A program made the translations under genes and the position numbers. From Phycisphaerales bacterium (GTDB lineage: Bacteria > Planctomycetota > Phycisphaerae > Phycisphaerales > UBA1924): DNA of 64,000 nucleotides. Below are positions 30,125 to 41,837 of the stretch, in pieces. Position 1 is the first letter of the stretch, and every line of letters begins with the position of its first letter. Under the pieces are notes generated by a model. That model was not told the DNA's origin, did not search any database, and worked only from the letters and a program-made list of their open reading frames with translations. The stretch is taken from contig JAVJVK010000001.1 in assembly GCA_040221175.1 (NCBI GenBank), forward strand, positions 1-64,000. The letters run 5' to 3'.

Positions 30125-30526
30125 TCAACTGACGATCGAACCGGGCGGCAGGTCGGCCATCGGGCTCAGGAGCACGACCGTGCGCTCTTCCTGGCCCTTG
30201 GCCGCGTCGCTGCCTGCCAGCAGCATACCGCGGCTTTCCTCGCCGCGCAGCTGCCGAGGCGCGAGGTTCGCCACGATCACGATGCTGCGACCAACCAACT
30301 CCTCGGGCGTGTAGTGGCCCTTGATGCCCGCACAGATCTGGCGGTGCGTGCCGCTGCCGTCGTCCAAGGTGAGCTTCAGCAGCCGGTCGGCCTTGGGGTG
30401 ATCGACCGCCTCAAGCACCTTGGCCACGCGAAGGTCGACGCGGGCGAAGTCCTCGAACACGATCTCGGGCTTGAAGGGCGACTCGCTCTGGGCGGGTGCA
30501 TCGGCGGGCGGGGCTTGTTCGGACAT
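30125..30526 (-). CDS. Free-standing tRNA-binding (EMAP/OB-fold) domain, MetG C-terminal type
   Basis: A 133-residue OB-fold protein: IVFEDFARVDLRVAKVLEAVDHPKADRLLKLTLD (in part DLRVAKVLEAVDHPKADRLL), RQICAGIKGHYTPEELVG, VIVANLAPRQLRGEESRGM. It matches the C-terminal tRNA-binding domain of methionyl-tRNA synthetase and the related CsaA/Arc1p family. In some bacteria this domain is encoded apart from MetG and acts in trans to improve tRNA binding. It has an extra acidic N-terminal tail (about 20 residues). It lies 28 bp after the last envelope-operon gene on the same strand but is functionally unrelated. Confidence 0.88.
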   Translation of the reverse strand: MSEQAPPADAPAQSESPFKPEIVFEDFARVDLRVAKVLEAVDHPKADRLLKLTLDDGSGTHRQICAGIKGHYTPEELVGRSIVIVANLAPRQLRGEESRGMLLAGSDAAKGQEERTVVLLSPMADLPPGSIVS

Positions 30527-30554: not shown

Positions 30555-31613
30555 CTACGGGCCCGAAGGCGGCTCTTCCGAGATTTGCCCGGGCTCGGCC
30601 GGCTCTACGGGCTGGTCGGGCGCCGCCGGTGGCTCGACCCATCGACCATCGCGCCACAGCGTGTGTTCAACCAGGATTCCGTACCGCGCCGCCAGTAGTT
30701 CGGGCACGCGGTCGGGGTCGGGGTCCAGCAGGGGCGCGCCGCCGTCGGCTGCGATCTGGGCGCCCCAGCTCTGGTGGATGCCTCGCAGCAGCCGGCTCTC
30801 GAATCGGAGATGATTGAGAAACTCCTGCTCGCTCATCGGCGGGCCCGGATTGCCGCGGCAGGTTGGGCAGATCAGCGTCTGGACGCCGTCCTCGCCGCGC
30901 CTGGTGATCACCCTTGAACCGCCGCACTCCAGGTCGGGCCAGTCTCGCAGCGCCCGCTCGAAACGGCTGAGTCCGCTCAGCCCGCCGCTGCCGCCGAGAA
31001 GCCGACCATACCGCTCGAAGACTTCGCGGACCGCTTCATCCTCGTACAGCCTTGCGGCGCGTCTTCCTTCGCCCGCTCGGGCCAGGCCCAGCGCATTGGC
31101 CGCGGCAAGGGCGACCTCAGGCGCCACGGTCAGCGTGGTGACGCCTGCGCCCGCTCCGCGAGTTGCGCGAGGGTCCACCAAGCCAGCCACGGCATAGAGC
31201 CAGGCCGAACCCTCGTCCGATGCTTCCAGCGATGCCAGGCCCAGGCAGGCGCCGGCCATGACCTCAGGACGGGCGCGCGTGCGTCGCTCCAGGTCGTAGG
31301 CGACGGCAAACAGGTGGCGCGCCAGGTCGCGGTCTTCGGGCGATCCGGTCTCGCTGGAGACCTCTTCGGCCAGTTCGAGGTACGCCATGGCATCGCTGGC
31401 GTCGAGGGCGGTGAGTCGCTCTTCGAGCCGAGGAACGCGTTGCATGGCCGTGCGCAGGGGTTTGCGCTCGGGCTCCGACTCGGCCGGTGTTTCGGGCTGG
31501 GGTTCAGCCTGGGGCTGGGTCTCGGGCTCGGTGGGCTCCACCGGGGGCGCGAACTGGGCGCGTGCGACAGCGGCACACACCAGGGGCAGCATGATGGTCA
31601 CCAGCTTGCTCAT
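30555..31613 (-). CDS. Periplasmic protein of the VWA-ExbBD operon
   Basis: A 352-residue exported protein. A short signal (MSKLVTIMLPLVCAAVARA) precedes a Pro/Glu-rich linker (PVEPTEPETQPQAEPQPE), then helical repeats at about 55-220 with Ala/Glu patterns (AYLELAEEVSSETGSPEDRD; GACLGLASLEASDEGSAWLY) that resemble TPR or Sel1-type arrays. A pair of cysteines in LICPTCRGNPG and another Cys in LECGGSR may bind metal or form disulphides. The C-terminus is Pro/Glu-rich. The ATG at 31613 overlaps the upstream gene stop as ATGA. It is the last gene of the envelope operon. Function unknown. Confidence 0.75.
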   Translation of the reverse strand: MSKLVTIMLPLVCAAVARAQFAPPVEPTEPETQPQAEPQPETPAESEPERKPLRTAMQRVPRLEERLTALDASDAMAYLELAEEVSSETGSPEDRDLARHLFAVAYDLERRTRARPEVMAGACLGLASLEASDEGSAWLYAVAGLVDPRATRGAGAGVTTLTVAPEVALAAANALGLARAGEGRRAARLYEDEAVREVFERYGRLLGGSGGLSGLSRFERALRDWPDLECGGSRVITRRGEDGVQTLICPTCRGNPGPPMSEQEFLNHLRFESRLLRGIHQSWGAQIAADGGAPLLDPDPDRVPELLAARYGILVEHTLWRDGRWVEPPAAPDQPVEPAEPGQISEEPPSGP

Positions 31614-34414
31614 TGGGGGCCTCCGCTCGCTGCCTCGGCCAGCTTCAGGCGCCAGGCCTCGAGGCGAGCGCGTTCGACGATGGCGATCTGCTCCAGAACA
31701 CCCTTGGCCGCCCGTCGATCTTCCTGGAGCTTCGCAAGCTGGTCGGCCAGCCGCATCGAGAGCGAGGGGCGCTCGGCGGCGGTGTTGTACAACGTGATCT
31801 CCGTCAGTGCCGACTGGTATGCCGCGAACCACTGCACCCGGCCTTGTGCGAGCCGCGTTCGCCCGGCGAGCCGGCGATCAACCTCGCCGGGGCTCATCGG
31901 CCAGATCGATGGCGGGACGACGCGGTCGGCCCGCTGGCGAGCGCGATTCCAGAGCAATTCGGCCGAGAGTTCGGGCGGGTTGTCCGACTGGGCCGAACTG
32001 GTCGACGAGATCGATAAGTTTCTTGCGTATGCGTCGGCGATGACGTCGGCGGCGCGGTCAATCTGAGCCAACTCGCCCTCGGCCGCGAGCAGGTGCAACA
32101 GGCGTTCAACGAGCGTGCGGCGCGCGACCAACTCCCATGATTCGCCGGCGGGCAGACGCTGCCCGGTCACCATCTCCACCATCTCTCGACGTCGCAGTTC
32201 GCCGCCGGGCAGTGGGAACGCTTCGAGCACGGCCGCGATGACGACGGGCTTGCCCGCGTGGCTCGTGAGCACGGCGCTTGCCTTGTCTCGCACGCTGGCG
32301 GTTGTTCCGCGCAAGTACGCAAGTGCGACCAATTCCGCCTCCACGGCGTGCTGTGGCCCGGACCGCATGAGTTCATCCAGCAGGTCGGCCTGCAATTCGG
32401 GCCGACGTTGCTCGAGGTATCGCAGGGCCCATGGGCTCGGGTCGCTGTGGCTTGCCATGTAGATCGAGCGGGTGCCGGCGGTAGCTTGCGATGCCTGCGA
32501 ATCGAGCCCGCTGCGCAACTGGAGCAGCTCGACATCGGCCTCGTTGGCCAAGCCCTGCCACAACAACTCGGCAGCGGTGTTGAGGCGCGCCGAGACTGCC
32601 GCGTCGACGGCGTGGGCTACCTGTGAGGATCCCAGCGGCGCCTCAAGATGGCGTCGCGCCTCGCCCAGCCAACGGTTGGTGACCTCGCCATGGGCCAGGG
32701 CCGACTGCACGTTCCACGCGGCGGCGAACCGATCGCGCACTTGAGATCGCTGGGACTGGCTCGCGAGGACAGGCAAGACCATGGTCGGATCGACACCCGG
32801 CGCACCCGAAGCCGTCGCCAGCACGTTGGTGACCGCATGCAGGTCTGCAATCGTGATCGCCGGATCGTCGAACCACGCCAGCAGACGGGATCGTGACTCG
32901 TCTTCGGGCCGCCAGGGCAGCGCCACGACGAGCCGGCGCACGATCTGGAAGACGCGCTCGTCCGTGGGCTCGGGGCCGCGCATCAACACGCCCTCGAGGC
33001 CGGCCAGGAGCATCCGATGCCCCAGTTGCGGCTCGCTCGCGGCCAGCCCTTCGACGGCCTGCAACCACGCGATCCAGGACTGCGGTTCGGAATCGAACGG
33101 CTCGCCGACCAGGGCTTCGAGTTCGGCTCGCAGCGCGACCGTCACGCCGGCGTTGAAGTCGCCGACGGCTCGCGCCTCGACGGGCGCCTGGGCCAGCAGG
33201 TAGCCTCGCAGGCCCTCGACGGCCGGGCCCGGGAGGTTCTGTTCCTTGTTCAGGCGGACGAGTGCGCCGACCTGCCAGGTGCGGGCGGCCAGTGTCGGCG
33301 AGGCCTCGCCTGCGCGCAGCGGTGCGGTCAGGAAGCCGATGACCCGACGCGTTGCGGCCTCGTCTTCTCGCACGAGGTAGAGATGGTCGATGACCAGCCC
33401 CAACGCCGCCTGCCGCTGGTCCGGCCTCACGCGTGGCCAATTGTCGGCGAGCGTCAGCACGGCACGCTCGAATACGGCCTGGGCGGAAGGCTCGCCCTTG
33501 CGGCGCCGGTCGGCCGCGAGGCGGAGATCCGTGACGATCGTGTCGATACGCGTGTCGGGCGTTGCGGCGGCACCTCGCTCGAGTTCGGCCTGGCGTTCGG
33601 CCTCCGCTACGGCCCGGGCCTGTTGTTCGGGCGTTAGGCCTTCGGACGTGGTGGGCGCCGTGGGTTGTTCGGCTTGTGCTGCCTGCTGGGCCGCCTGGCC
33701 CGAGCTGCGCATGACCGGAATGGCAATGAGCACTGCGGCGGCGGCGACGAGCGTCAGCACCACGGCCACGGCCATGGCACCGAGCAATGCGAAGTCATTC
33801 GCGCCGCTATGAGATGGGCCCGACTCGGCTGGAGAGAACCGGCCGGGGTCGGTCACGCCATCGTCACCGTCGCTTGCGCCATTACCCGCCGCCGGCAGTG
33901 CCGGACCACTCTGTCGTGCCAGACGCGTCAACGCGACGGCAAGGTCATCGCCGGTCAACCCGCGGGCGTGGGCGAGCATCGATAGATGGCGCATGGTCGT
34001 GGCGTTCCAGCCGCCGTGCGCGCCAAGTGCGAGCACCGCGTCCTGCTGGAGCGCCAGGTGGGCCGGTGGCAACTGGTGCGGCCGGCTCCACCGCGCGGGT
34101 AGATCGGAGGGCTGATCTTCTTCGATCGCAAAGCCGGTCGAGCGCCGGCGACTGCCCAGCAGTTGTGCGGCGGCGGCGTGCAAGGCCAACCTGGCTTCGT
34201 CGCCCAGTGGCGTGCCGCCGTACCGGTGCGCGTTGACGCGGGCCAGCCGCTCGTTGAGCGCGGCGACGATCTCGCCGTCGTCGGCGTGCTCGGTATCGAT
34301 GCCCAGCAGGCCGGCGGCGCCGGTGTTGGGCTCCAGGCCCAGGATGCCCGCGATGGCGGCCTCGCGCGGGGTTGGTTGCGGGCGCCCCGGTGGTGGGGGA
34401 GGTGCGTTGGTCAT
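31610..34414 (-). CDS. Membrane-anchored giant helical-repeat protein of the VWA-ExbBD operon
   Basis: A 934-residue protein. The cytoplasmic N-terminus of about 205 residues contains a region (AGILGLEPNTGAAGLLGID; IVAALNERLARVNAHRYGG) with a conserved-looking small helical domain. A single transmembrane helix spans about 208-234 (FALLGAMAVAVVLTLVAAAAVLIAIPV). The periplasmic part of about 700 residues is an alpha-helical array, HEAT/TPR-like (AVFERAVLTLADNWPRVRPD; VEAELVALAYLRGTTASVRD). No catalytic motif. The topology, with a large body on the periplasmic side and a cytosolic domain, suits a scaffold linking both sides of the inner membrane. It is ATGA-coupled to both neighbours. Confidence 0.78.
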   Translation of the reverse strand: MTNAPPPPPGRPQPTPREAAIAGILGLEPNTGAAGLLGIDTEHADDGEIVAALNERLARVNAHRYGGTPLGDEARLALHAAAAQLLGSRRRSTGFAIEEDQPSDLPARWSRPHQLPPAHLALQQDAVLALGAHGGWNATTMRHLSMLAHARGLTGDDLAVALTRLARQSGPALPAAGNGASDGDDGVTDPGRFSPAESGPSHSGANDFALLGAMAVAVVLTLVAAAAVLIAIPVMRSSGQAAQQAAQAEQPTAPTTSEGLTPEQQARAVAEAERQAELERGAAATPDTRIDTIVTDLRLAADRRRKGEPSAQAVFERAVLTLADNWPRVRPDQRQAALGLVIDHLYLVREDEAATRRVIGFLTAPLRAGEASPTLAARTWQVGALVRLNKEQNLPGPAVEGLRGYLLAQAPVEARAVGDFNAGVTVALRAELEALVGEPFDSEPQSWIAWLQAVEGLAASEPQLGHRMLLAGLEGVLMRGPEPTDERVFQIVRRLVVALPWRPEDESRSRLLAWFDDPAITIADLHAVTNVLATASGAPGVDPTMVLPVLASQSQRSQVRDRFAAAWNVQSALAHGEVTNRWLGEARRHLEAPLGSSQVAHAVDAAVSARLNTAAELLWQGLANEADVELLQLRSGLDSQASQATAGTRSIYMASHSDPSPWALRYLEQRRPELQADLLDELMRSGPQHAVEAELVALAYLRGTTASVRDKASAVLTSHAGKPVVIAAVLEAFPLPGGELRRREMVEMVTGQRLPAGESWELVARRTLVERLLHLLAAEGELAQIDRAADVIADAYARNLSISSTSSAQSDNPPELSAELLWNRARQRADRVVPPSIWPMSPGEVDRRLAGRTRLAQGRVQWFAAYQSALTEITLYNTAAERPSLSMRLADQLAKLQEDRRAAKGVLEQIAIVERARLEAWRLKLAEAASGGPQ

Positions 34415-37101
34415 GGCGCATCCTCCAAGGCCGGCCCGGGCAGGTCGCGACCGGTCTCGAGCGATTCCAGCAGCGTGTTCAGCCGCGACGCCCATGGTTC
34501 GGGCGTCCCGGGATAGAGCAAGAGGTGCTGACGCAACGCGTCGATTGCTCGGGGCGCGTCGCTCCTTCCCAGCAACCGCGCTGATTCGTAGCGAGCCCGA
34601 AGGGCCATGGCCGAACCATCGGCGGCGCCGGCGAGCAGGCGGCGCCACGCGTCCAGCGCGTCGTCGTTGCGGCCGACGAGTTCGCTGGCATACGCGAAGC
34701 GAGCAAGCGAGAACGCGTCCGCCACGTCGGCCGCCTTCAGGCGTCCGTCGATCGCCACGACGAGATCGAGCATCTCGCGTTGCTGGCTTTCTGATCCTGC
34801 CGCGCGGCCGAGCGTCCATGCCGCACGGGCGACGCTGGTGTGCACGCCGAAGGCCTGCGGGCTGGCGAGCGTGCCCTCATCGCTGCCCATCTGCGCGATG
34901 ACGGGTCGACCGAACTCGACAACTTGCCTTGCATAGTCCGCGTTGTCCGGAGCATCGGCAAATCGCTGGGCGGCCCAGGCATACATGGCACGATCGGCCA
35001 GCGCATCGAAGACGCCGTCTTCTTCGTCGAACGTCTCGGCGATTCGCTGAGCCTCGTTGGCATCGTTGCGGGCAAGGGCAACCTGCAGCCGACGAAACGC
35101 GATCTCGGACTCGATCGACTCGGGAGGCGCACCAACCCGAAGCCGGAGTTCTTGGACCATCTCCAGCAGCGCATCGGCTCGCTCGGTATCGGGTACCGGA
35201 GAAGCCAGGATGACCTGGAGCATCGCTCGCGCCAACGCGAGCGCACGATCGGCCGACTGCGACGCCGTTTCAAGGTCCCCAGTTGCCGCTCGCCGGCGAT
35301 CGATCGTGAGCAACTCGTCGGCCACGGTCAGGTAACGCAGGGCCGCGGCTGAACGGGCGTCGCCGGTCAGCCGACGCAGCCGGGCGTACAGCAGTCGTTC
35401 GGCCCGGCGGCGTGCGGCTTCATACAGCGGCGAATCCGGTTCGACGTTCAGCAGGATCTCGACGGCTTTGGGGTCGTCGGCCGAGGCCGCCCCGGCGCGG
35501 GCAACGAGAAGGCGTGCGGCACGCTCGGTTCCCGGGAAGCTCTGGAGGTAGAGCGTGACGAGCCGATCCCGCCGGGGTCCGATGCCGTCGGCGCCCTCTC
35601 GGATGGCCGCATCGAGCGCGACGATCGCGTGCCATAAGGCGCGTTCGGCCTGTTCTGTGTCGCTCGCGGCCTCGTGGGCGCGCTCGAAACGATCGGCCGC
35701 GTCGAGCATGGCTCCACCCATGTATGCCGACATCGCCGCCAGTTGCATGGCCTGGGCGCGCTCGTCGGGAAAGCGGTCGGCATCGTCGGCCTGGAGGGCT
35801 GCGTCGAGCGCGCGGACTGCCGCGGCGTACAGGTTTGCGACCGTGTCGTCCGTGGCGATCTGGCCCTCTTCGTATCCTGCCGCGTCGTATGCCTCGGTTG
35901 CGCGCTGGTAGGCGTTCTGCCCACGCACGAAGGCGAATATGAAGCCTTCGCCCTCGAGCGAGGACGTCCCGTACTGCTCGACCAGCGATCGAAGCACCGA
36001 GACCTGGTTCTGGCGGACGATGTCCTGGATCGCCGCGTGTGCGATCTCCTCGAGGATGGATTGATCCCTCGGATTCAATCGCTGGCGGGTCAACGCCTCC
36101 CACGCCACGTTGGCAAGCAGCTGCGCTTCAAGTGGCTCAAGCCCCAGCTTGCCATCGGCACGACGCGAACGCCGCATGCGATCGCTGTGATAGGCCAGGT
36201 CCCGCCAGCGCCCGGCTTCGCCCAGCACCAGCAGCCGACAGACGAACAGCCGATCTCGGATGCTTTCCGAGAGCGTCGGGGCAGACTCGATCTTGTCGAT
36301 CCATCGCAGCGCGGTGTCGGCATTACCCAAGAGGGATTCGCAGAATGCCGCGGCGATTGCAGCGTCGGCCACGTGGTCGAACCGCATCAGCCGCTCGTCG
36401 GCCCGTTCGACACTGGCGGCACGGTTCTCCTCGGCGCCCAGCAGCACGCCGAGGTCCTTCAGCGCATCCATGGCGTAGCGCTCGCTACCGGTCATCACCG
36501 CCAGGTAGTAGCGCGTCCAGCCGAGCAGGTAGTGCGCCGTCGATCGAACCCGGGCCGCTTCCTCGTATGCGTCCTGCTCCTGCTCATCCAGACCGACGGC
36601 CGAGCGGCGGCGTTCGAGTCGATAGGCGGCTTCCGAGGCCGTCTGTGCGACCGACGAGAGCTCGGGCGCCAGCGAGCGCAGCGTCCGTTCGGCTTCGGCG
36701 AGTTCGTCGGTGGGGACGTTGTTCAGCCGGGCGCGCTCGGCGACTTCCTTGGCCCATTGATATCGCGCGCGAACGAGCGCCAAACGCAGGTCGCCGGCGT
36801 CCTCTTCGGGGAGCTGACGCGTCAAGCGCTGGCCGAGTTGCTCGATGCGCTGGCGGTCCTCCGCGGTCGTGGCACGCGCGAGCAATTCGACGTACAGATC
36901 TGCCAGCCGCTTGGCAAGGGCCCGGCGGTCATCGACCGACGCATTCTCGAATTGATACCGCAGATCTGCGGCCTCGACCTCGCGCAATTCGTGCTGTTCC
37001 AGGTATGCTTCGAACCGCTGTTCGTCTTGTGCGTGCGATGCCCGGCCGGCCAGGACCAGCAGCGAGCATGCGAGCAGAATGGCGCTAGTCGGCGGGAACA
37101 T
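34411..37101 (-). CDS. Periplasmic helical-repeat protein of the VWA-ExbBD operon
   Basis: An 896-residue protein with a signal peptide (ILLACSLLVLAGRASHAQ) and then an all-helical body of TPR-like repeats (ALRWIDKIESAPTLSESIRDR; RALDAALQADDADRFPDERA; ALDAWRRLLAGAADGSAMAL; AIDALRQHLLLYPGTPEP). No enzyme motif was seen. It starts at the ATG at 37101, 17 bp inside the end of the ExbD gene, and overlaps the next gene as ATGA, so it is part of the same coupled unit. It is likely a periplasmic scaffold or partner-binding protein for the ExbBD-VWA machine. Confidence 0.8.
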   Translation of the reverse strand: MFPPTSAILLACSLLVLAGRASHAQDEQRFEAYLEQHELREVEAADLRYQFENASVDDRRALAKRLADLYVELLARATTAEDRQRIEQLGQRLTRQLPEEDAGDLRLALVRARYQWAKEVAERARLNNVPTDELAEAERTLRSLAPELSSVAQTASEAAYRLERRRSAVGLDEQEQDAYEEAARVRSTAHYLLGWTRYYLAVMTGSERYAMDALKDLGVLLGAEENRAASVERADERLMRFDHVADAAIAAAFCESLLGNADTALRWIDKIESAPTLSESIRDRLFVCRLLVLGEAGRWRDLAYHSDRMRRSRRADGKLGLEPLEAQLLANVAWEALTRQRLNPRDQSILEEIAHAAIQDIVRQNQVSVLRSLVEQYGTSSLEGEGFIFAFVRGQNAYQRATEAYDAAGYEEGQIATDDTVANLYAAAVRALDAALQADDADRFPDERAQAMQLAAMSAYMGGAMLDAADRFERAHEAASDTEQAERALWHAIVALDAAIREGADGIGPRRDRLVTLYLQSFPGTERAARLLVARAGAASADDPKAVEILLNVEPDSPLYEAARRRAERLLYARLRRLTGDARSAAALRYLTVADELLTIDRRRAATGDLETASQSADRALALARAMLQVILASPVPDTERADALLEMVQELRLRVGAPPESIESEIAFRRLQVALARNDANEAQRIAETFDEEDGVFDALADRAMYAWAAQRFADAPDNADYARQVVEFGRPVIAQMGSDEGTLASPQAFGVHTSVARAAWTLGRAAGSESQQREMLDLVVAIDGRLKAADVADAFSLARFAYASELVGRNDDALDAWRRLLAGAADGSAMALRARYESARLLGRSDAPRAIDALRQHLLLYPGTPEPWASRLNTLLESLETGRDLPGPALEDAP

Positions 37102-37495
37102 ACGTCCTCTTCACGAATCCGGCGTCCAGTGCGTCCTGCATGACGCCGGCCACGGCCGCCCACGGCGCCCGGTCGGTCACCCGAACAAACAAACCACCCT
37201 CCTTGGGCAGTTGTTCGAGGGCCACCGCGAGTGCTTCGCGATCCGCGAAAACCCGCGTGCCCATGCGATACGTCACGGCGCCGTCGGTCTGATCGATCGT
37301 GACGATCTGCGGCTTCAGGTCACGCGCCTGTCCGGCCCCGCGCTCGCCTTGCAGCGTAGAGGCCACCCGGCTCTCGGGCGGCGTGATCGTGGCCGTCACC
37401 ATGAAGTAGATCAGCAGCAGGAAGACCACGTCGATCAGCGGCGTCAGCGGGAGGTCGCCCGCGTCGTCTCGATAGCTCGGGGGACGCACGCGCAC
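37085..37495 (-). CDS. exbD: ExbD/TolR-family protein 2
   Basis: A 136-residue ExbD/TolR protein. Short cytoplasmic N-terminus (RVRPPSYRDDAGDLPLT), then the conserved transmembrane helix PLIDVVFLLLIYFMVTATI, whose Asp 22 corresponds to the proton-conducting aspartate of ExbD/TolR. The periplasmic domain is about 85 residues (LKPQIVTIDQTDGAVTYR; LFVRVTDRAPWAAVAGVMQD). It starts with GTG at 37495, directly behind the first exbD. Two ExbD subunits of different sequence next to one ExbB suggest a heterodimeric rotor or plug. Confidence 0.9.
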   Translation of the reverse strand: MRVRPPSYRDDAGDLPLTPLIDVVFLLLIYFMVTATITPPESRVASTLQGERGAGQARDLKPQIVTIDQTDGAVTYRMGTRVFADREALAVALEQLPKEGGLFVRVTDRAPWAAVAGVMQDALDAGFVKRTYVPAD

Positions 37496-37498
37496 GGC

Positions 37499-37927
37499 TC
37501 AGCCCCGCCCCGATCGATTGACCGTGGCATGGCTCCACTGGCGCACGCCCATGCCCGTAAGCCGCCGGGCCAGTTCATTGACCGGGCCCGCCGCCGCCCC
37601 CTGGTCGGCTCGCAAGAGCACACGCAGGTTCTCCGGCCCGCCCGCGCGGTCGGCCTGTTCCTGCACGATCTCGATCACCCGCTCGAGCGAGCGCATGCGC
37701 CCGGAAACGAGGAAGGCACCGTCGGCGCGAACGTCGATCATCAGCGCTTCGGGATCGCTTACCGACTCCTCGGCCCCAGGCTCGTCTGGAAGGTCGACGC
37801 TGGTGCGGCTGACTTCGGCAAAGCGCGCCGTGTACAGGAAGAAGATGATCACCAGCAACACGACATCGATCATCGGCGTCATGTTCACCGTAAATCGCAC
37901 GCGTGCTGGCTTGGACCCAAAGAGCAT
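37499..37927 (-). CDS. exbD: ExbD/TolR-family protein 1
   Basis: A 142-residue ExbD/TolR protein. The transmembrane helix TPMIDVVLLVIIFFLYTARF carries Asp 21, equivalent to the proton-path aspartate. The periplasmic domain (SDPEALMIDVRADGAFLVSG; LRVLLRADQGAAAGPVNELA) has the typical dimeric ExbD pattern of strands and helices. The ATG at 37927 lies 24 bp after exbB. It differs strongly from the second ExbD, so the two are not recent duplicates. Confidence 0.9.
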   Translation of the reverse strand: MLFGSKPARVRFTVNMTPMIDVVLLVIIFFLYTARFAEVSRTSVDLPDEPGAEESVSDPEALMIDVRADGAFLVSGRMRSLERVIEIVQEQADRAGGPENLRVLLRADQGAAAGPVNELARRLTGMGVRQWSHATVNRSGRG

Positions 37928-37951
37928 CGTGTCAGTCCGTTCCGTGGGCCA

Positions 37952-38743
37952 TCAGCGGGCGCCCGCGGTGGTGGGGGCGGGCGCCCGGCCGGCCGGGGTG
38001 GGCGACTGTCCGCCGGCGGGCTTGGCACTCTGGATGCGCGCGGCGAGTTCCTCGGTCAGTTCGGCGATGCCCTGAGCCAGGGCATCGACCCGGTTGCGGA
38101 AGAAGCTGTGCAGCGCCGTCGCCGGGATGGCCACGATGAGGCCAAGCACCGTCGTGATCAGGGCGACGGAGATGCTCGATGCGAGCGCTTCGGGTCGCAC
38201 GCCCTCGCTTACGCTGAGCGTCTCGAACGCGCCCACCAGGCCCACGACCGTGCCCAGCAGCCCGAGCATGGGCGCGACCGCGGCGATCAGGCCCATCGGG
38301 TCGGTCTTGCGCTGGAGCTTGGCGAATCGCTCCTGGCCCGCCTCTTCCAGCGCTGAACGAAGCTCCAGCAAGCCGAAGGGCGACCGAAGGCACCGCGTGA
38401 GCGCCGCGGCAAACATGCCCGTCAGCAGGCAGCGGTTCTCCTCGGCCTGGCAGAACGCCAAGGCGCCGCGCACGTCGTTGGCCGCCAGCAGCCGGTCGAG
38501 ACCTTCGACCACGCGGGGTGGCGCCAGTCGGGGCAATCGGATCTCGGCAAATAGCCAGACGGTCATCAGCACCGCCGTGAATGACAGCAAGATGATCACG
38601 ATGCCGATGGGGCCACCCGAGAGGATGTGCTGGAGCAGCGTCTTGCCGTCGTCGGTCGCGGGCGTCGCGGCCGGGGCGGCCTGGGCCACCAGGCTGGCGA
38701 CCTGGGAAATCAGCGGGGCGAACGCGCCCGGTACAAGGCTCAT
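37952..38743 (-). CDS. exbB: ExbB/TolQ/MotA-family proton channel subunit
   Basis: A 263-residue inner membrane protein. Helix one is near residues 45-67 (GGPIGIVIILLSFTAVLMTVWLF). A cytoplasmic stretch is followed by the two conserved helices GLIAAVAPMLGLLGTVVGLVGAF (in part APMLGLLGTVVGLVGAFETL) and SISVALITTVLGLIVAIPATAL (in part ALITTVLGLIVAIPA), with the Thr residues that line the ion path in ExbB/TolQ. The C-terminus is an Ala/Pro tail. The N-terminus carries an extra Ala-rich hydrophobic stretch. A ggagag site precedes the ATG at 38743; it overlaps the upstream gene as ATGA. Works with the two ExbD proteins to use the proton motive force. Confidence 0.93.
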   Translation of the reverse strand: MSLVPGAFAPLISQVASLVAQAAPAATPATDDGKTLLQHILSGGPIGIVIILLSFTAVLMTVWLFAEIRLPRLAPPRVVEGLDRLLAANDVRGALAFCQAEENRCLLTGMFAAALTRCLRSPFGLLELRSALEEAGQERFAKLQRKTDPMGLIAAVAPMLGLLGTVVGLVGAFETLSVSEGVRPEALASSISVALITTVLGLIVAIPATALHSFFRNRVDALAQGIAELTEELAARIQSAKPAGGQSPTPAGRAPAPTTAGAR

Positions 38744-39900
38744 GGGGTCTCTCCGGCCGTCAATGGTTCCGGCGCCGTTGTGGCGGCGCTCTGATCGCCG
38801 CGCAAGAGGGGTGTCAATGCAGGCCACGATAGCGCAGGCGACTGCGGGCTCACGCGGACGAGTTCATCGGCCAGCGATCCTGCCACGACGGCCTGGCCGA
38901 GCTTCGCCAGCGTGACGGCAGCCTCGGCAAGCGCAATGTCCGCCAGTGCGGGGGCGTCGGCTCGGTGCAACACGTGGACCCGCAACAGTTGGGCCACGCC
39001 CCGAAGCTGGAGTTCTTCCTCATCTTCGAGCACCATCGAACGACCGATGGCGGCGCGGATCCAAGCCGCCAGCCAGGGCGAGCCGGCGTTGTTCAGGGCG
39101 GCCTCCAGCCGAGCTCTGGCGGACGTGCGCGCCGGCGGCGCAAGCACGCGAGCGGCGACGATATCGCGTACGAGTTCGCTCGCCGGTTCGCGTGGAACCT
39201 CGGGCAACTCGTCGATGGTCTGCCCGAGTTCGTATCGGGCCGCGGCCTGGTACAGCGCACGCATGGCGGCCGCCTTGTCGCGCTCGCCTTCGACAGGTTC
39301 CAACTGCGTGACAAGCTGGAGCGAAGGCGTCGCCACCCACATGGGCGGAAGCAGGTGGCATAGCTCGGTACCCGCATCAATGACCTGCGGCAGGCCGGCC
39401 TCGCGCGCCCATTGCCGATGCGCGAAAGTCGTGCGTGGCTGGCGCACGATGGACGCGTCGAGCCACGCCAACCATGGTTCGATCGCCGCTGCCGTGGCGC
39501 CGCGCGCCAGCCGGCACCGGAGCAGTCCTTCAGTCACCACCAGTCCCGTCGGCCCACGCAACCTCTGGCCATCGGATCGGGCCCGATCGAACACCTGCTG
39601 GAGCAGGGGTTCGGCCAGGACCAAGTCGCCGCGTTCCACGCGCGATCGGGCCCGCCACGAATTCATCGCAAGCGCATCGAACGGTTCCGATGCCTCGGCC
39701 AGCGATGCCGGCGGCCGGAGCACGCGATCCCACCCGACGATCACGACGTCGCCTTGGGAGGTCCGCACCTGGACGCCCTGCGGCCCGACACCCATGGCGC
39801 GTCCGGGCGGTGGCTGCTCGAACCCTCGCAGCACCAGTTCGTCCTGTGCTGCCAGGGGCGACGCCAACGAGAGGCATATGGCCACGACCGCCAGCCTCAA
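38740..39900 (-). CDS. Periplasmic protein between VWA and ExbB genes
   Basis: A 386-residue exported protein starting with TTG at 39900; its start overlaps the VWA gene stop as TTGA. Signal peptide RLAVVAICLSLASPLAAQ. Residues of about 20-60 look like a small strand-rich domain (ELVLRGFEQPPPGRAMGVGP; VQVRTSQGDVVIVGWDRVL) that resembles SH3-like modules. The rest is helical repeat (PLLQQVFDRARSDGQRLRGP; AAMRALYQAAARYELGQTID; ADIALAEAAVTLAKLGQAVV). No catalytic motif. Its place in the coupled operon suggests it binds the VWA protein or ExbBD in the periplasm. Confidence 0.75.
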   Translation of the reverse strand: MRLAVVAICLSLASPLAAQDELVLRGFEQPPPGRAMGVGPQGVQVRTSQGDVVIVGWDRVLRPPASLAEASEPFDALAMNSWRARSRVERGDLVLAEPLLQQVFDRARSDGQRLRGPTGLVVTEGLLRCRLARGATAAAIEPWLAWLDASIVRQPRTTFAHRQWAREAGLPQVIDAGTELCHLLPPMWVATPSLQLVTQLEPVEGERDKAAAMRALYQAAARYELGQTIDELPEVPREPASELVRDIVAARVLAPPARTSARARLEAALNNAGSPWLAAWIRAAIGRSMVLEDEEELQLRGVAQLLRVHVLHRADAPALADIALAEAAVTLAKLGQAVVAGSLADELVRVSPQSPALSWPALTPLLRGDQSAATTAPEPLTAGETP

Positions 39901-40853
39901 CGCGGGCCCTCGATGTGCGTATAGGTGCCGCGCGTGGACGTGGCGATGCGCCGCATGAGGGCCTCGCCCTCGCGGCTGCGGAAGGTGATGCAGTGAATCG
40001 GAATATTCACGCGCTCGAACATGGAGAGAATTTGCTCGGCTTCATCGTCGGAAAATTCTCCGTCGGTCATGAAGTAGATTGCGTCGGGCCGGGGCTCGAG
40101 CATGGCCACCAGCTCGAAGCCCGCGGCGGGTCGCGTGGCGCCCTCGGCGCGGGTCGCGAGCACGTGCGCCCGCGCCCAGTTCTTCCCGCTGTCGGTCGCC
40201 TCGGCCCAGACAACGCCGCGATCGCCCAGCGGCCGCGCGCCCGAGTTGAAGAACGCAACGAAGAAATTGGAGGAACTGAACAACCCCGTGATGGATCGGA
40301 TGAGCTCCTGCTGCAGCGATTGCAGGCGACCGTCGTTGACCATCGAGCCCGACGTGTCGACCACGAACGCGAAGTTATTCCCACGGGCCTCGACGCCGAA
40401 GAAGCTGGCGCCGGCGCCCACGCTGTCTCCGCCGCCCAGCCCGACGCCTTCAAGGTCTCCGCCGCCCAGCTGCAATGACACGTCGCCCATCGATTCGGCG
40501 AGGTCGGACATGTCGACTTCCAGCGCGCCCAGGTCGAGCTCGGCCTGCATCTCCAGGGCCGAACTGGACGCATCGGTATCGGGGGCCTCCAGCGCCAGTT
40601 CCTCCGCGGCGATCTCGGCCAGCTCCGCGTCGGTCATCACCGCAAATTCGACCTCCGGCGAGGCCGAGCCCAGTTGGGCGACGGGCTGATTCATGCGGAT
40701 CAGGGCGGCGATGAGCAGGATGACCACGTGCACCAGCAACGACACCGCCGCGCTGCTGGCCAGCAGGGGCACCTTGTGGCGATTGACCCACGCCAGCACG
40801 CCCGTCCGCTCTTCGTCGGCCTGGGATGTATCGGGTTGATCCGGGGGAGTCAT
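39897..40853 (-). CDS. TonB/TolA-like membrane helix fused to a von Willebrand A domain
   Basis: A 318-residue protein, first gene of the operon. The cytoplasmic N-terminus (about 1-28) is followed by one helix at about 29-53, LLASSAAVSLLVHVVILLIA, with Ser 38 and His 42 in the same SxxxH spacing as the TonB and TolA energy-transducing helices. Then comes an acidic Ala/Glu/Asp linker (TDAELAEIAAEELALEAPDT) and Gly-rich spacer. The VWA domain occupies about 160-318, with MIDAS residues D166, S168 and S170 in FVVDTSGSM, and later YFMTDGEFSDDEAEQ. The start is the ATG at 40853. A TTG two codons upstream is unlikely. It should receive force from ExbBD and bind ligands through the MIDAS metal. Confidence 0.85.
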   Translation of the reverse strand: MTPPDQPDTSQADEERTGVLAWVNRHKVPLLASSAAVSLLVHVVILLIAALIRMNQPVAQLGSASPEVEFAVMTDAELAEIAAEELALEAPDTDASSSALEMQAELDLGALEVDMSDLAESMGDVSLQLGGGDLEGVGLGGGDSVGAGASFFGVEARGNNFAFVVDTSGSMVNDGRLQSLQQELIRSITGLFSSSNFFVAFFNSGARPLGDRGVVWAEATDSGKNWARAHVLATRAEGATRPAAGFELVAMLEPRPDAIYFMTDGEFSDDEAEQILSMFERVNIPIHCITFRSREGEALMRRIATSTRGTYTHIEGPR

Positions 40854-41069
40854 CGCCAAGGGTTGTACTCACGAAAGGGCGACCGAGATCGCTTCCCGTT
40901 CATCGACCGGACGGCCACGGCCGCCCGAAACCGTGTGCCTACCCTGACTCCGCTACCAGGGGTCGAGGCCGGAGGTTGCAGACAGCCGTCCGCGATATTG
41001 GTTTTCCCTAAAGCTCGCCCGATGCCGGGGCCGCCTCTGCGTATGCACGATCGGGGTTTGCCGAGCCAC

Positions 41070-41837
41070 ATGCACACCGTTGATGACCCCAGCCCCGCTC
41101 CCAAGCTCCAAGCGCCCGATGGCGATCGGGAGCCGAACCGCTTGCTGCTCAAGCTGAGCGGCGAGGCCTTCGGACGCTCGGGCGCGGGCGTCGACCCCAA
41201 CCTGCTCACCGACATCTGCAAGGAAATCGCCCAAGCGACCACGCATGGCGCCCAGTTGGCGATCGTGGTCGGCGGTGGCAACATCATCCGAGGGGCCCAA
41301 CTGGCCGCCGCTGGCCTGGTGCAACGGGCGACCGCCGACCACATGGGCATGCTCGGCACGGTCATCAACGCCCTGGCGCTCCGCGAGGGGCTGACCTCGG
41401 TGGGCGTCGACAGCCGCGTGATGAGTGCCATCGAGATCCGCGCCGTTGCCGAAACATTCATCCGCGGGCGGGCGATTCGCCACCTCGAGAAGGGCCGCGT
41501 CGTCATCCTGGCCGGCGGCACGGGCAATCCGTACTTCTCGACCGACACCTGCGCATCGCTGCGGGCGATGGAACTGGGCTGCCGGGTCTTGTTGAAGGCC
41601 ACCAAGGTCGACGGCGTGTACTCGGCCGACCCGAACATCGATCCGAAGGCGACCAAGTACGACCACCTGACCTTCTCCCAGGCCATCGACAAGGGCCTGG
41701 GCGTAATGGACATGACCGCTCTTGCCATGTGCCAGGAGCAGGACATGCCCGTCGTCGTGTTCAATTTCCAGAAGCCCGGCAACATCGCGGCGGTCATTCG
41801 CGGCGAGAACATCGGCACCCGCCTTTCCGTGCGATAA
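41070..41837 (+). CDS. pyrH: UMP kinase
   Basis: A 255-residue uridylate kinase of the amino acid kinase fold that phosphorylates UMP to UDP. Family motifs are present: LLLKLSGEAFG, IAIVVGGGNIIRG (LAIVVGGGNIIRGAQ), ATADHMGMLGTVINALAL, VILAGGTGNPYFSTDT, LKATKVDGVYSADP. The ATG at 41070 is chosen; an in-frame ATG at 41043 adds nine residues and has no better ribosome binding site. It carries a longer acidic N-terminus (about 25 residues) than E. coli PyrH (241). It is followed by frr with a 58-bp gap, the common pyrH-frr order. Confidence 0.95.
   Translation: MHTVDDPSPAPKLQAPDGDREPNRLLLKLSGEAFGRSGAGVDPNLLTDICKEIAQATTHGAQLAIVVGGGNIIRGAQLAAAGLVQRATADHMGMLGTVINALALREGLTSVGVDSRVMSAIEIRAVAETFIRGRAIRHLEKGRVVILAGGTGNPYFSTDTCASLRAMELGCRVLLKATKVDGVYSADPNIDPKATKYDHLTFSQAIDKGLGVMDMTALAMCQEQDMPVVVFNFQKPGNIAAVIRGENIGTRLSVR

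Follow-up and report, generated by a model that had tools for sequence, protein, structure and literature searches.

A planctomycete operon for a probable motor-driven VWA protein, and the relocated and lost motors of its relatives

Eight leftward genes occupy positions 30555–40853 of a 64,000 nt stretch of Phycisphaerales bacterium (GCA_040221175.1, contig JAVJVK010000001.1, positions 1–64,000; hereafter, the window), and raise the question of whether a protein with a VWA domain, an ExbB-ExbD-ExbD motor and large helical-repeat proteins work together or are merely adjacent. We name their products, in operon order, VWA, P386, ExbB, ExbD1, ExbD2, H896, H934 and P353. Our results indicate that the operon quite probably specifies a trans-envelope machine driven by the proton motive force (PMF), in which the VWA protein stands in place of TonB or TolA, and that all eight proteins likely belong to it. 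The basis for this reading lies in the sequences: the domains, the conserved gene order, the conservation of motifs, fusions of neighbouring genes, and the change of a short segment, the motor box, in most genomes in which the motor type of the operon was not found.

Composition and conservation of the operon

All eight open reading frames were confirmed on the minus strand and are tightly packed, with overlaps of 4 nt (VWA/P386, P386/ExbB, H896/H934 and H934/P353) or 17 nt (ExbD2/H896), and gaps of 24 nt (ExbB-ExbD1) and 3 nt (ExbD1-ExbD2). Comparison with Pfam identified VWA_3 in VWA (E 1e-7), MotA_ExbB in ExbB (E 1e-26) and ExbD in both ExbDs (E 4e-18 and 1e-12), confirming the one-ExbB/two-ExbD motor named in a preliminary description of this DNA. 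For P386, H896, H934 and P353, neither Pfam nor NCBIfam gave a family above the cut-off, and PHROGs and PADLOC gave no match. The features of the operon, with signal peptides and membrane topology read by eye, are as follows (window coordinates, all on the minus strand).

39897..40853, minus: VWA, force-transducer candidate of 318 aa, with an N-terminal membrane helix, a linker with the motor box and a periplasmic VWA domain
40728..40742, minus: SxxxH motif (S38...H42) of the VWA membrane helix, invariant in 13/13 homologues
40620..40652, minus: motor box, a D-box-like segment (V68-L78, VEFAVMTDAEL) 26 residues past H42
40344..40358, minus: DxSxS (D166, S168, S170) of the metal ion-dependent adhesion site (MIDAS), invariant in 13/13 homologues, as are Thr240 and Asp264
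38740..39900, minus: P386, probably exported, with a small beta domain (about 34–62) and a TPR-like helical array
37952..38743, minus: ExbB/TolQ homologue of an operon-specific clade (Pfam, tree)
37499..37927, minus: ExbD1, with membrane Asp21 (Pfam, sequence)
37085..37495, minus: ExbD2, with membrane Asp22 (Pfam, sequence)
34411..37101, minus: H896, probably an exported TPR protein (profile match to designed TPR proteins in PDB)
31610..34414, minus: H934, with an N-terminal part in the cytosol, a single membrane helix and a large periplasmic alpha-solenoid (inferred topology)
34133..34369, minus: degenerate J-domain-like segment of H934, aa 16–94, without HPD (weak DnaJ2 profile matches)
30555..31613, minus: P353, probably exported, with a Cys motif, CxxC...CxxCxG, in homologues (homologue alignment)

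The gene set is conserved well beyond the window. Used alone as a query, H934 found a match in 14 of 198 genomes of the class, its own included, and on the fetched stretches of the 13 others the neighbours recurred in order, with two of the 13 lacking the motor genes. A P386 profile matched in 46 of 298 class genomes, every one with the gene order of the window, distributed among families as 27/27 in the family of the window (f1), 17/20 in f4, 2/2 in f5, 0/4 in f2 and 0/12 in f3; there was no match to this profile in the remaining 233 class genomes (one in the result table and 232 outside it). H896 occurred in 154 of 163 f1 genomes and in 111 of the 112 of good quality (≥90% complete, ≤5% contaminated), the single good-quality genome without it (G330) also lacking a detectable operon-type ExbB. 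After removal of seven judged duplicates from 89 loci with H896, 82 distinct loci remained, and gene order and strand, for the genes present, were identical at all of them. This outcome of the gene-neighbourhood check proposed in the preliminary description bears out its eight coupled leftward genes as one conserved set. All eight were visible at 53 loci, the rest being cut by contig ends or devoid of the motor trio. Neighbouring genes were also found fused in one open frame, H934 with P353 at four loci (G209, G327, G323 and G161) and P386 with H896 at two motor-less loci (G333 and G328), any single case of which could be a draft-assembly error.

GTDB contigs were scanned with a VWA profile, and we evaluated the best 80 of 88 loci, taken from a candidate list giving at least that many. 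At least one other operon gene was present at 30 of these 80 loci, mostly labelled Phycisphaerales or Planctomycetota, the others being Phycisphaerae, Phycisphaeraceae, Pirellulaceae, Planctomycetaceae and an uncultured bacterium. No other operon gene was found at the remaining 50, eight of which carried SxxxH; one of these eight, L124, resembles a truncated operon, its VWA gene pointing away from a pyrH-like gene much as the window gene does from pyrH.

As for the surroundings of the operon, it is divergent from pyrH, which lies at 40674–41837 (plus strand) of the window next to the VWA gene; L124:3212-4844 also contains the pyrH-like gene, with a ribosome-recycling-factor gene alongside, and the chromosomal site of the operon may thus be conserved. 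At the other end, a gene for a tRNA-binding domain like the C-terminus of methionyl-tRNA synthetase (30125–30526, minus strand) starts 28 nt past the last stop codon of the operon, with which it may be co-transcribed. Separately, a locus from Verrucomicrobia (L141:5793-10555) encodes a VWA protein with SxxxH (SVAVH) and, judged by eye, also contains a TPR-like gene and a beta segment like the N-terminal one of P386; no ExbB was found within the fetched stretch.

The transducer candidate, its motor and the candidate scaffold proteins

We aligned 13 VWA homologues, the window protein and 12 others that are 30–88% identical to it. After the start Met, Ser38 and His42 were the only invariant residues before Leu78, and the MIDAS residues Asp166, Ser168, Ser170, Thr240 and Asp264 were invariant as well. 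In the larger set, D.[ST].S was present in 74/74 VWA proteins and TDG in 73/74. SxxxH was conserved in 59 of 60 assessable proteins from operons with the motor, the exception being T...H in G331 (automatic count), and in 13/13 from motor-less operons. About 27 residues after the His (median, n=64 counted) lies the motor box, which, judged by eye, resembles the Escherichia coli TonB D-box peptide QPISVTMVTPAD. In the available text of PMC10907165, this peptide is captured as a beta strand by one ExbD dimer; "motor box" is the name given to the element in TolA and TonB in the available part of PMC12204202. The description of the protein as TonB/TolA-like thus stands, with both hallmarks present, a SxxxH helix and a juxtamembrane motor box, and the assignment of VWA as a motor-driven transducer is, as far as sequence comparison goes, well supported.

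The operon ExbBs formed a single clade (11 rows, support 96/98). With an operon-type ExbB profile, in-operon proteins scored at least 236 bits and all other ExbB or MotA-like proteins at most 150 bits; four further PF01618 proteins are encoded in the genome of the window. Of 130 ExbDs, 129 retain the membrane Asp, and a GxxGT-type motif is present in 63/63 ExbBs. We rejected a Zorya-like anti-phage function, ExbB giving just a weak match to ZorA (E 0.0016).

Two other motor loci, both in G000:C7, were noted in passing. A second ExbB-ExbD-ExbD trio (L035:9065-12219) adjoins tsaE and a thiL-like gene with an AIRS domain, with no transducer gene seen alongside. Downstream of another ExbB-ExbD pair is a 927-aa protein (L034:11002-13785) with a match to PD40, the TolB-type propeller (E 8e-16), followed, by eye, by a membrane helix with SxxxH (SLLVH); it is possibly a TolB-TolA-like single protein.

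Of the four remaining proteins, P386, H896 and the periplasmic part of H934 could serve as scaffold. The AlphaFold2 model of P386 (mean predicted local distance difference test score, pLDDT, 92.7) shows a small beta domain and then TPR-like helices, and its best Foldseek and VIA rows were mostly generic TPR proteins. The top VIA row was the YbgF TPR domain (Z 12.7, 2.8 Å, 124 aligned), tied with unrelated TPRs, and the best Foldseek row was a periplasmic scaffold of the Campylobacter flagellar motor (E 0.024); we infer no kinship from either match. The H896 profile matched designed TPR proteins in PDB (best E 2.2e-5), and single-sequence PDB searches with H896 and H934 returned nothing useful. 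For H934, the AlphaFold2 model (mean pLDDT 82.8, predicted template modelling score 0.48) contains a helical unit at 16–94, a three-helix unit, a membrane helix within 207–247 and an alpha-solenoid, and matched weakly to HEAT/ARM-like and other solenoids in Foldseek and VIA. The "giant helical-repeat proteins" of the preliminary description are probably a TPR protein and an alpha-solenoid protein, with the amendment that H934 is not simply periplasmic and probably has a cytosolic N-terminal part. A profile of H934 aa 16–94 had three PDB matches, all DnaJ2 and all weak (E 0.015 to 0.46). His63 is nearly invariant and the window has HRY; an HPD motif was absent at that position from 24 aligned sequences, and no Pfam J-domain match was obtained for 24 H934 members. 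Among 13 P353 homologues, eight have the full CxxC...CxxCxG motif, the four from the genus of the window lack one of its Cys residues, and G161 has no such motif.

Relocated and lost motors and the fate of the motor box

At the 82 distinct loci, ExbB lay in the operon in 63 cases and ExbD at the contig edge in two, P386 was directly followed by H896 in 15 and two were undecidable, i.e., the motor was in the operon at 65 of 80 judgeable loci. On the H896 tree, its presence and absence need six changes. Motor status and ExbB type were tallied by hand for each genome. The motor-less operons fell into two classes. In the relocated class, an operon-type trio with both ExbDs, which were checked in these two genomes only, occurs elsewhere in G279 and G340 (ExbB of 244 and 249 bits), and an unlinked operon-type ExbB accompanies the motor-less operon in G345, G350, G360, G379, G427 and G429, the last two assigned from ExbBs of 229 and 214 bits, below the lowest in-operon score. 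In the lost class, an operon-type ExbB was not found in G291, G333, G319, G335, G310, G301, G341, G107 and G084, with all PF01618 candidates scored and placed in a tree, nor among the candidates scored in G381 (16 of 22) and G343 (16 of 20).

The motor box was present in 62 of 64 proteins with the motor in the operon (60/61, plus two of three added loci, the third, G428, having a near variant), in all eight with a relocated motor, and in only two of 11 from genomes in which the motor type was not found (G319 and G343). This tally leaves out G359, G361 (= L108), G328, G426, G377 and G430, with an unreadable VWA N-terminus, counts G349 (= L114) once, and excludes from the relocated eight L099, which has the box but could not be assigned to any of the genomes searched. 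The simple box pattern was picked after inspecting the sequences; we also used a score independent of the pattern, given by a profile that was built from the loci containing the motor and cross-validated ten-fold. The median score was 46.3 with the motor (n=61, range 1.2 to 76.9), 40.0 for relocated motors (n=4, including L099 and L110 (= G345), both assigned by kinship) and 10.8 for lost ones (n=9, range 3.9 to 29.7), a difference with a p value of 7e-6, not corrected for kinship. In the same proteins and with the same test, the VWA domain had medians of 217.6, 218.3 and 217.7, respectively (p 0.79). The equal domain scores together with the drop in box scores indicate that the end domain is equally constrained and that it is the motor-contact segment that changes. 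On the H896 tree, most of the lost genomes belong to two clades. Our results thus support, from sequence comparisons and with few independent losses behind them, that the box tracks the presence of the motor and not its adjacency; being kept when the motor is relocated and mostly changed when its type is not found, the box speaks for coupling rather than mere adjacency.

Another motor may serve in its stead. Among f1 genomes, a second ExbB type was present in 11/11 without the motor in the operon versus 26 of 44 whose operon contains it (Fisher p 0.010, not corrected for kinship; 58 f1 genomes with H896, three of them unassignable), an association for which only one of three independent pairs was informative. 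Within a set of ten motor-less genomes, the sole other ExbB of G333 and G310, besides a protein grouping with flagellar MotA-like ones, belongs to this second ExbB-ExbD-ExbD type, and the same holds for G291, G319 and G335 apart from extra MotA-like or weak distant matches. When the operon motor type has been lost, another ExbB-ExbD-ExbD trio probably drives the VWA protein. We tentatively consider, as the bolder and somewhat less probable option, that the operon preserves a record of motor swapping, in which the docking motif was kept and the ExbD-binding box was re-tuned to the second trio upon loss of the cognate motor and left unchanged upon relocation; the machine would then join Ton and Tol as another major PMF-driven trans-envelope system, one that combines a VWA arm with giant scaffolds of the TPR and solenoid types and with a J-like domain in the cytosol.

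Two lost-motor genomes, G084 and G107, contain an extra second-type trio between a G6PD gene (not immediately adjacent in G107) and a gene for an FtsX-type permease, lolC-like by eye (L060:6807-11790 and L061:2134-10985, the latter also having an adjacent ABC ATPase). We considered whether the J-like part of H934 disappears together with the motor, since it is lacking in G107, G084 and G328, but dropped the idea because G329 and G334 also lack it and yet bear a motor.

Mechanism, alternatives and known systems

We infer the stoichiometry, the force, the partners and a core role in envelope maintenance along the following lines. An ExbB pentamer would surround an ExbD1/ExbD2 pair, with proton flow driving movement, and VWA would dock to ExbB via its SxxxH helix and to the ExbDs via the D-box-like motor box. 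The motor could then pull or release the periplasmic VWA domain, whose intact MIDAS would grip an acidic partner, most likely one of the co-encoded scaffolds (H896, P386 or the periplasmic part of H934) or something held by them, and the load would end at the outer membrane or cell wall. Near-universality among good-quality genomes of the family, together with the Ton parts not found (see below), suggests a housekeeping task rather than nutrient uptake, and envelope maintenance is our best guess for the role.

Several observations weigh against such a machine. The ExbB-ExbD-ExbD genes are missing from 15 of 82 operons, and the preliminary description had proposed that helical-repeat genes without ExbBD would denote mere adjacency; taken literally, this is what those 15 loci show, although in several of those genomes the same motor type is elsewhere and the box is kept. 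G343 (91% complete; of its genus-mates, G344 has an operon with the motor, and G279 and G345 carry the motor at another site) keeps the box though an operon-type ExbB was not found, G319 does likewise by the simple pattern, and L125, which contains the motor, has a box score as low as those of lost proteins. Tree-aware pairing reduced the motor losses to three independent pairs, of which an average of 2.9 showed a changed box, and with so few pairs the test cannot reach significance. The ion-path residues, described as kept, are so for the ExbD Asp and the GxxGT-type motif, but the Glu aligned with that of TolQ is mostly missing, being Val193 in the window and occurring directly before the AL[IV]TT-type motif in 4 of 61 ExbBs. 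Lastly, both P386 and H934 have their best structural matches among common repeat folds.

The simplest alternative is that VWA, TPR and solenoid proteins form an envelope complex independent of an ExbBD trio inserted in their operon, as could be read from the retention of the other on-contig genes where the motor between P386 and H896 is absent. We consider this improbable, given that the motor stays in the operon at most judgeable loci and, when relocated, persists as the operon type (in G279 and G340, far above the 150 bits reached by other ExbBs), that SxxxH is kept throughout and that the motor box mostly follows the motor. A more serious contender, which we regard as possible though not favoured, bears on the swapping of motors: after loss of the motor type the box would simply decay, VWA no longer being driven. 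The low box scores of the nine lost proteins fit this; conversely, SxxxH is kept in 9/9 of them, their VWA domains score as high as elsewhere, an alternation of hydrophobic residues can still be seen by eye in several of the altered boxes, and the second ExbB type was present in all motor-less genomes assigned, with the limits given above for that association.

Other alternatives concern what the machine does. It might be a Tol-Pal-like tether or constrictor of the outer membrane, with VWA corresponding to TolA, P386 and H896 to CpoB, and an unlinked OmpA-type protein as the anchor, a hypothesis with a real but minority share of the probability. Among solved structures, ExbB scored best against TolQ (E 1.5e-15), narrowly above ExbB (4e-14), the top VIA row of P386 was YbgF, three OmpA-domain proteins are encoded elsewhere in the genome, and the operon is near-universal in the family. 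However, TolB, Pal and TolA domains were not found among the eight products, Z values under about 13 are common for helical repeats, and one of the OmpA matches adjoins a gene that reads like flagellar motA. By analogy with the Agl-Glt gliding motor of Myxococcus, the operon could instead encode a machine for surface motility or adhesion: according to PMC3169522, the gliding motor is likewise of the ExbB/ExbD type and PMF-driven, with GltG as a TonB-like transducer and with TPR proteins, and PMC12204202 suggests that vWA transducers have a role in gliding. Presence in nearly the whole family, as expected of a core function, and the fact that nothing here predicts a surface adhesin make this unlikely, and we retain the reading of a PMF-driven machine with a VWA arm.

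The operon offers a large comparative set, with H896 in nearly all f1 genomes and a built-in contrast among motors that are in the operon, moved or lost. It provides an independent evolutionary argument for the motor box contacting the motor, names P386, H896, H934 and P353 as candidate VWA partners, and allows peptide binding to be tested directly with boxes and ExbDs taken from lineages that match and from lineages that do not. It would also show how bacteria without TonB or receptors use inner-membrane energy in the periplasm.

Compared with the Ton system, the operon shares the SxxxH helix, a D-box-like box after the helix and the motor family, but its end domain is a VWA with MIDAS and its two ExbDs are different from each other. 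As anticipated in the preliminary description, it is not a standard set: searches of the genome of the window gave 0 matches at E 0.001 for both TonB_C (PF03544) and the TonB-dependent receptor plug (PF07715), and MoxR and BatA are likewise absent from the eight products, the scope checked. The likeness to Tol-Pal lies in an ExbB scoring best against TolQ and in TPR proteins, as CpoB; in the eight products, neither Pfam nor NCBIfam matched TolA, TolB or Pal.

AglRQS consists, like the motor of the operon, of one ExbB and two ExbDs. The available text of PMC3169522 describes, for Agl-Glt of Myxococcus, a PMF-driven ExbB/ExbD-type motor, a TonB-like GltG bound by AglR, TPR proteins and gene linkages lost in evolution, so that the likeness, by description only, extends to the motor, the transducer, the TPR proteins and the lost linkages. 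TPH-vWA/TolQ systems, the second family in the available part of PMC12204202, also combine a VWA with a TolQ-like motor; theirs is without ExbD and has an Asp-bearing pore helix in the VWA protein, whereas here there are two ExbDs and a VWA with SxxxH.

The closest known systems are the vWA force transducers described in 2025 by Williams-Jones et al., and the "undescribed" of the preliminary description is consequently not supported. In the available part of that paper (PMC12204202), vWA transducers of the Planctomycetes-Verrucomicrobia-Chlamydiae (PVC) group have a SHLS helix and a motor box, and their gene neighbours are one tolQ-like, two heterologous tolR-like and one TPR gene; the proposal was based on genomic context and predicted structures, with a suggested role in gliding and no phenotype reported in that text. 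Shared with them are the helix His (Ser and His being tested here), the motor box, a C-terminal VWA (VWA_3 above cut-off), the tolQ-like, two tolR-like and TPR gene neighbours, and the inclusion of Planctomycetes. We filed the operon as a variant of these transducers because every tested feature of the available description was present. The eight-gene arrangement, or a change of the motor box with motor loss, was not found in our searches of the open-access literature, and the eight-part version and the record of losing, perhaps swapping, motors appear new. In comparison with the transducers described in the available text, and by description rather than by sequence as regards the Tichowtungia family, VWA is here the first gene, P386, H934 and P353 are extra conserved components, and the motor trio has been repeatedly lost or relocated.

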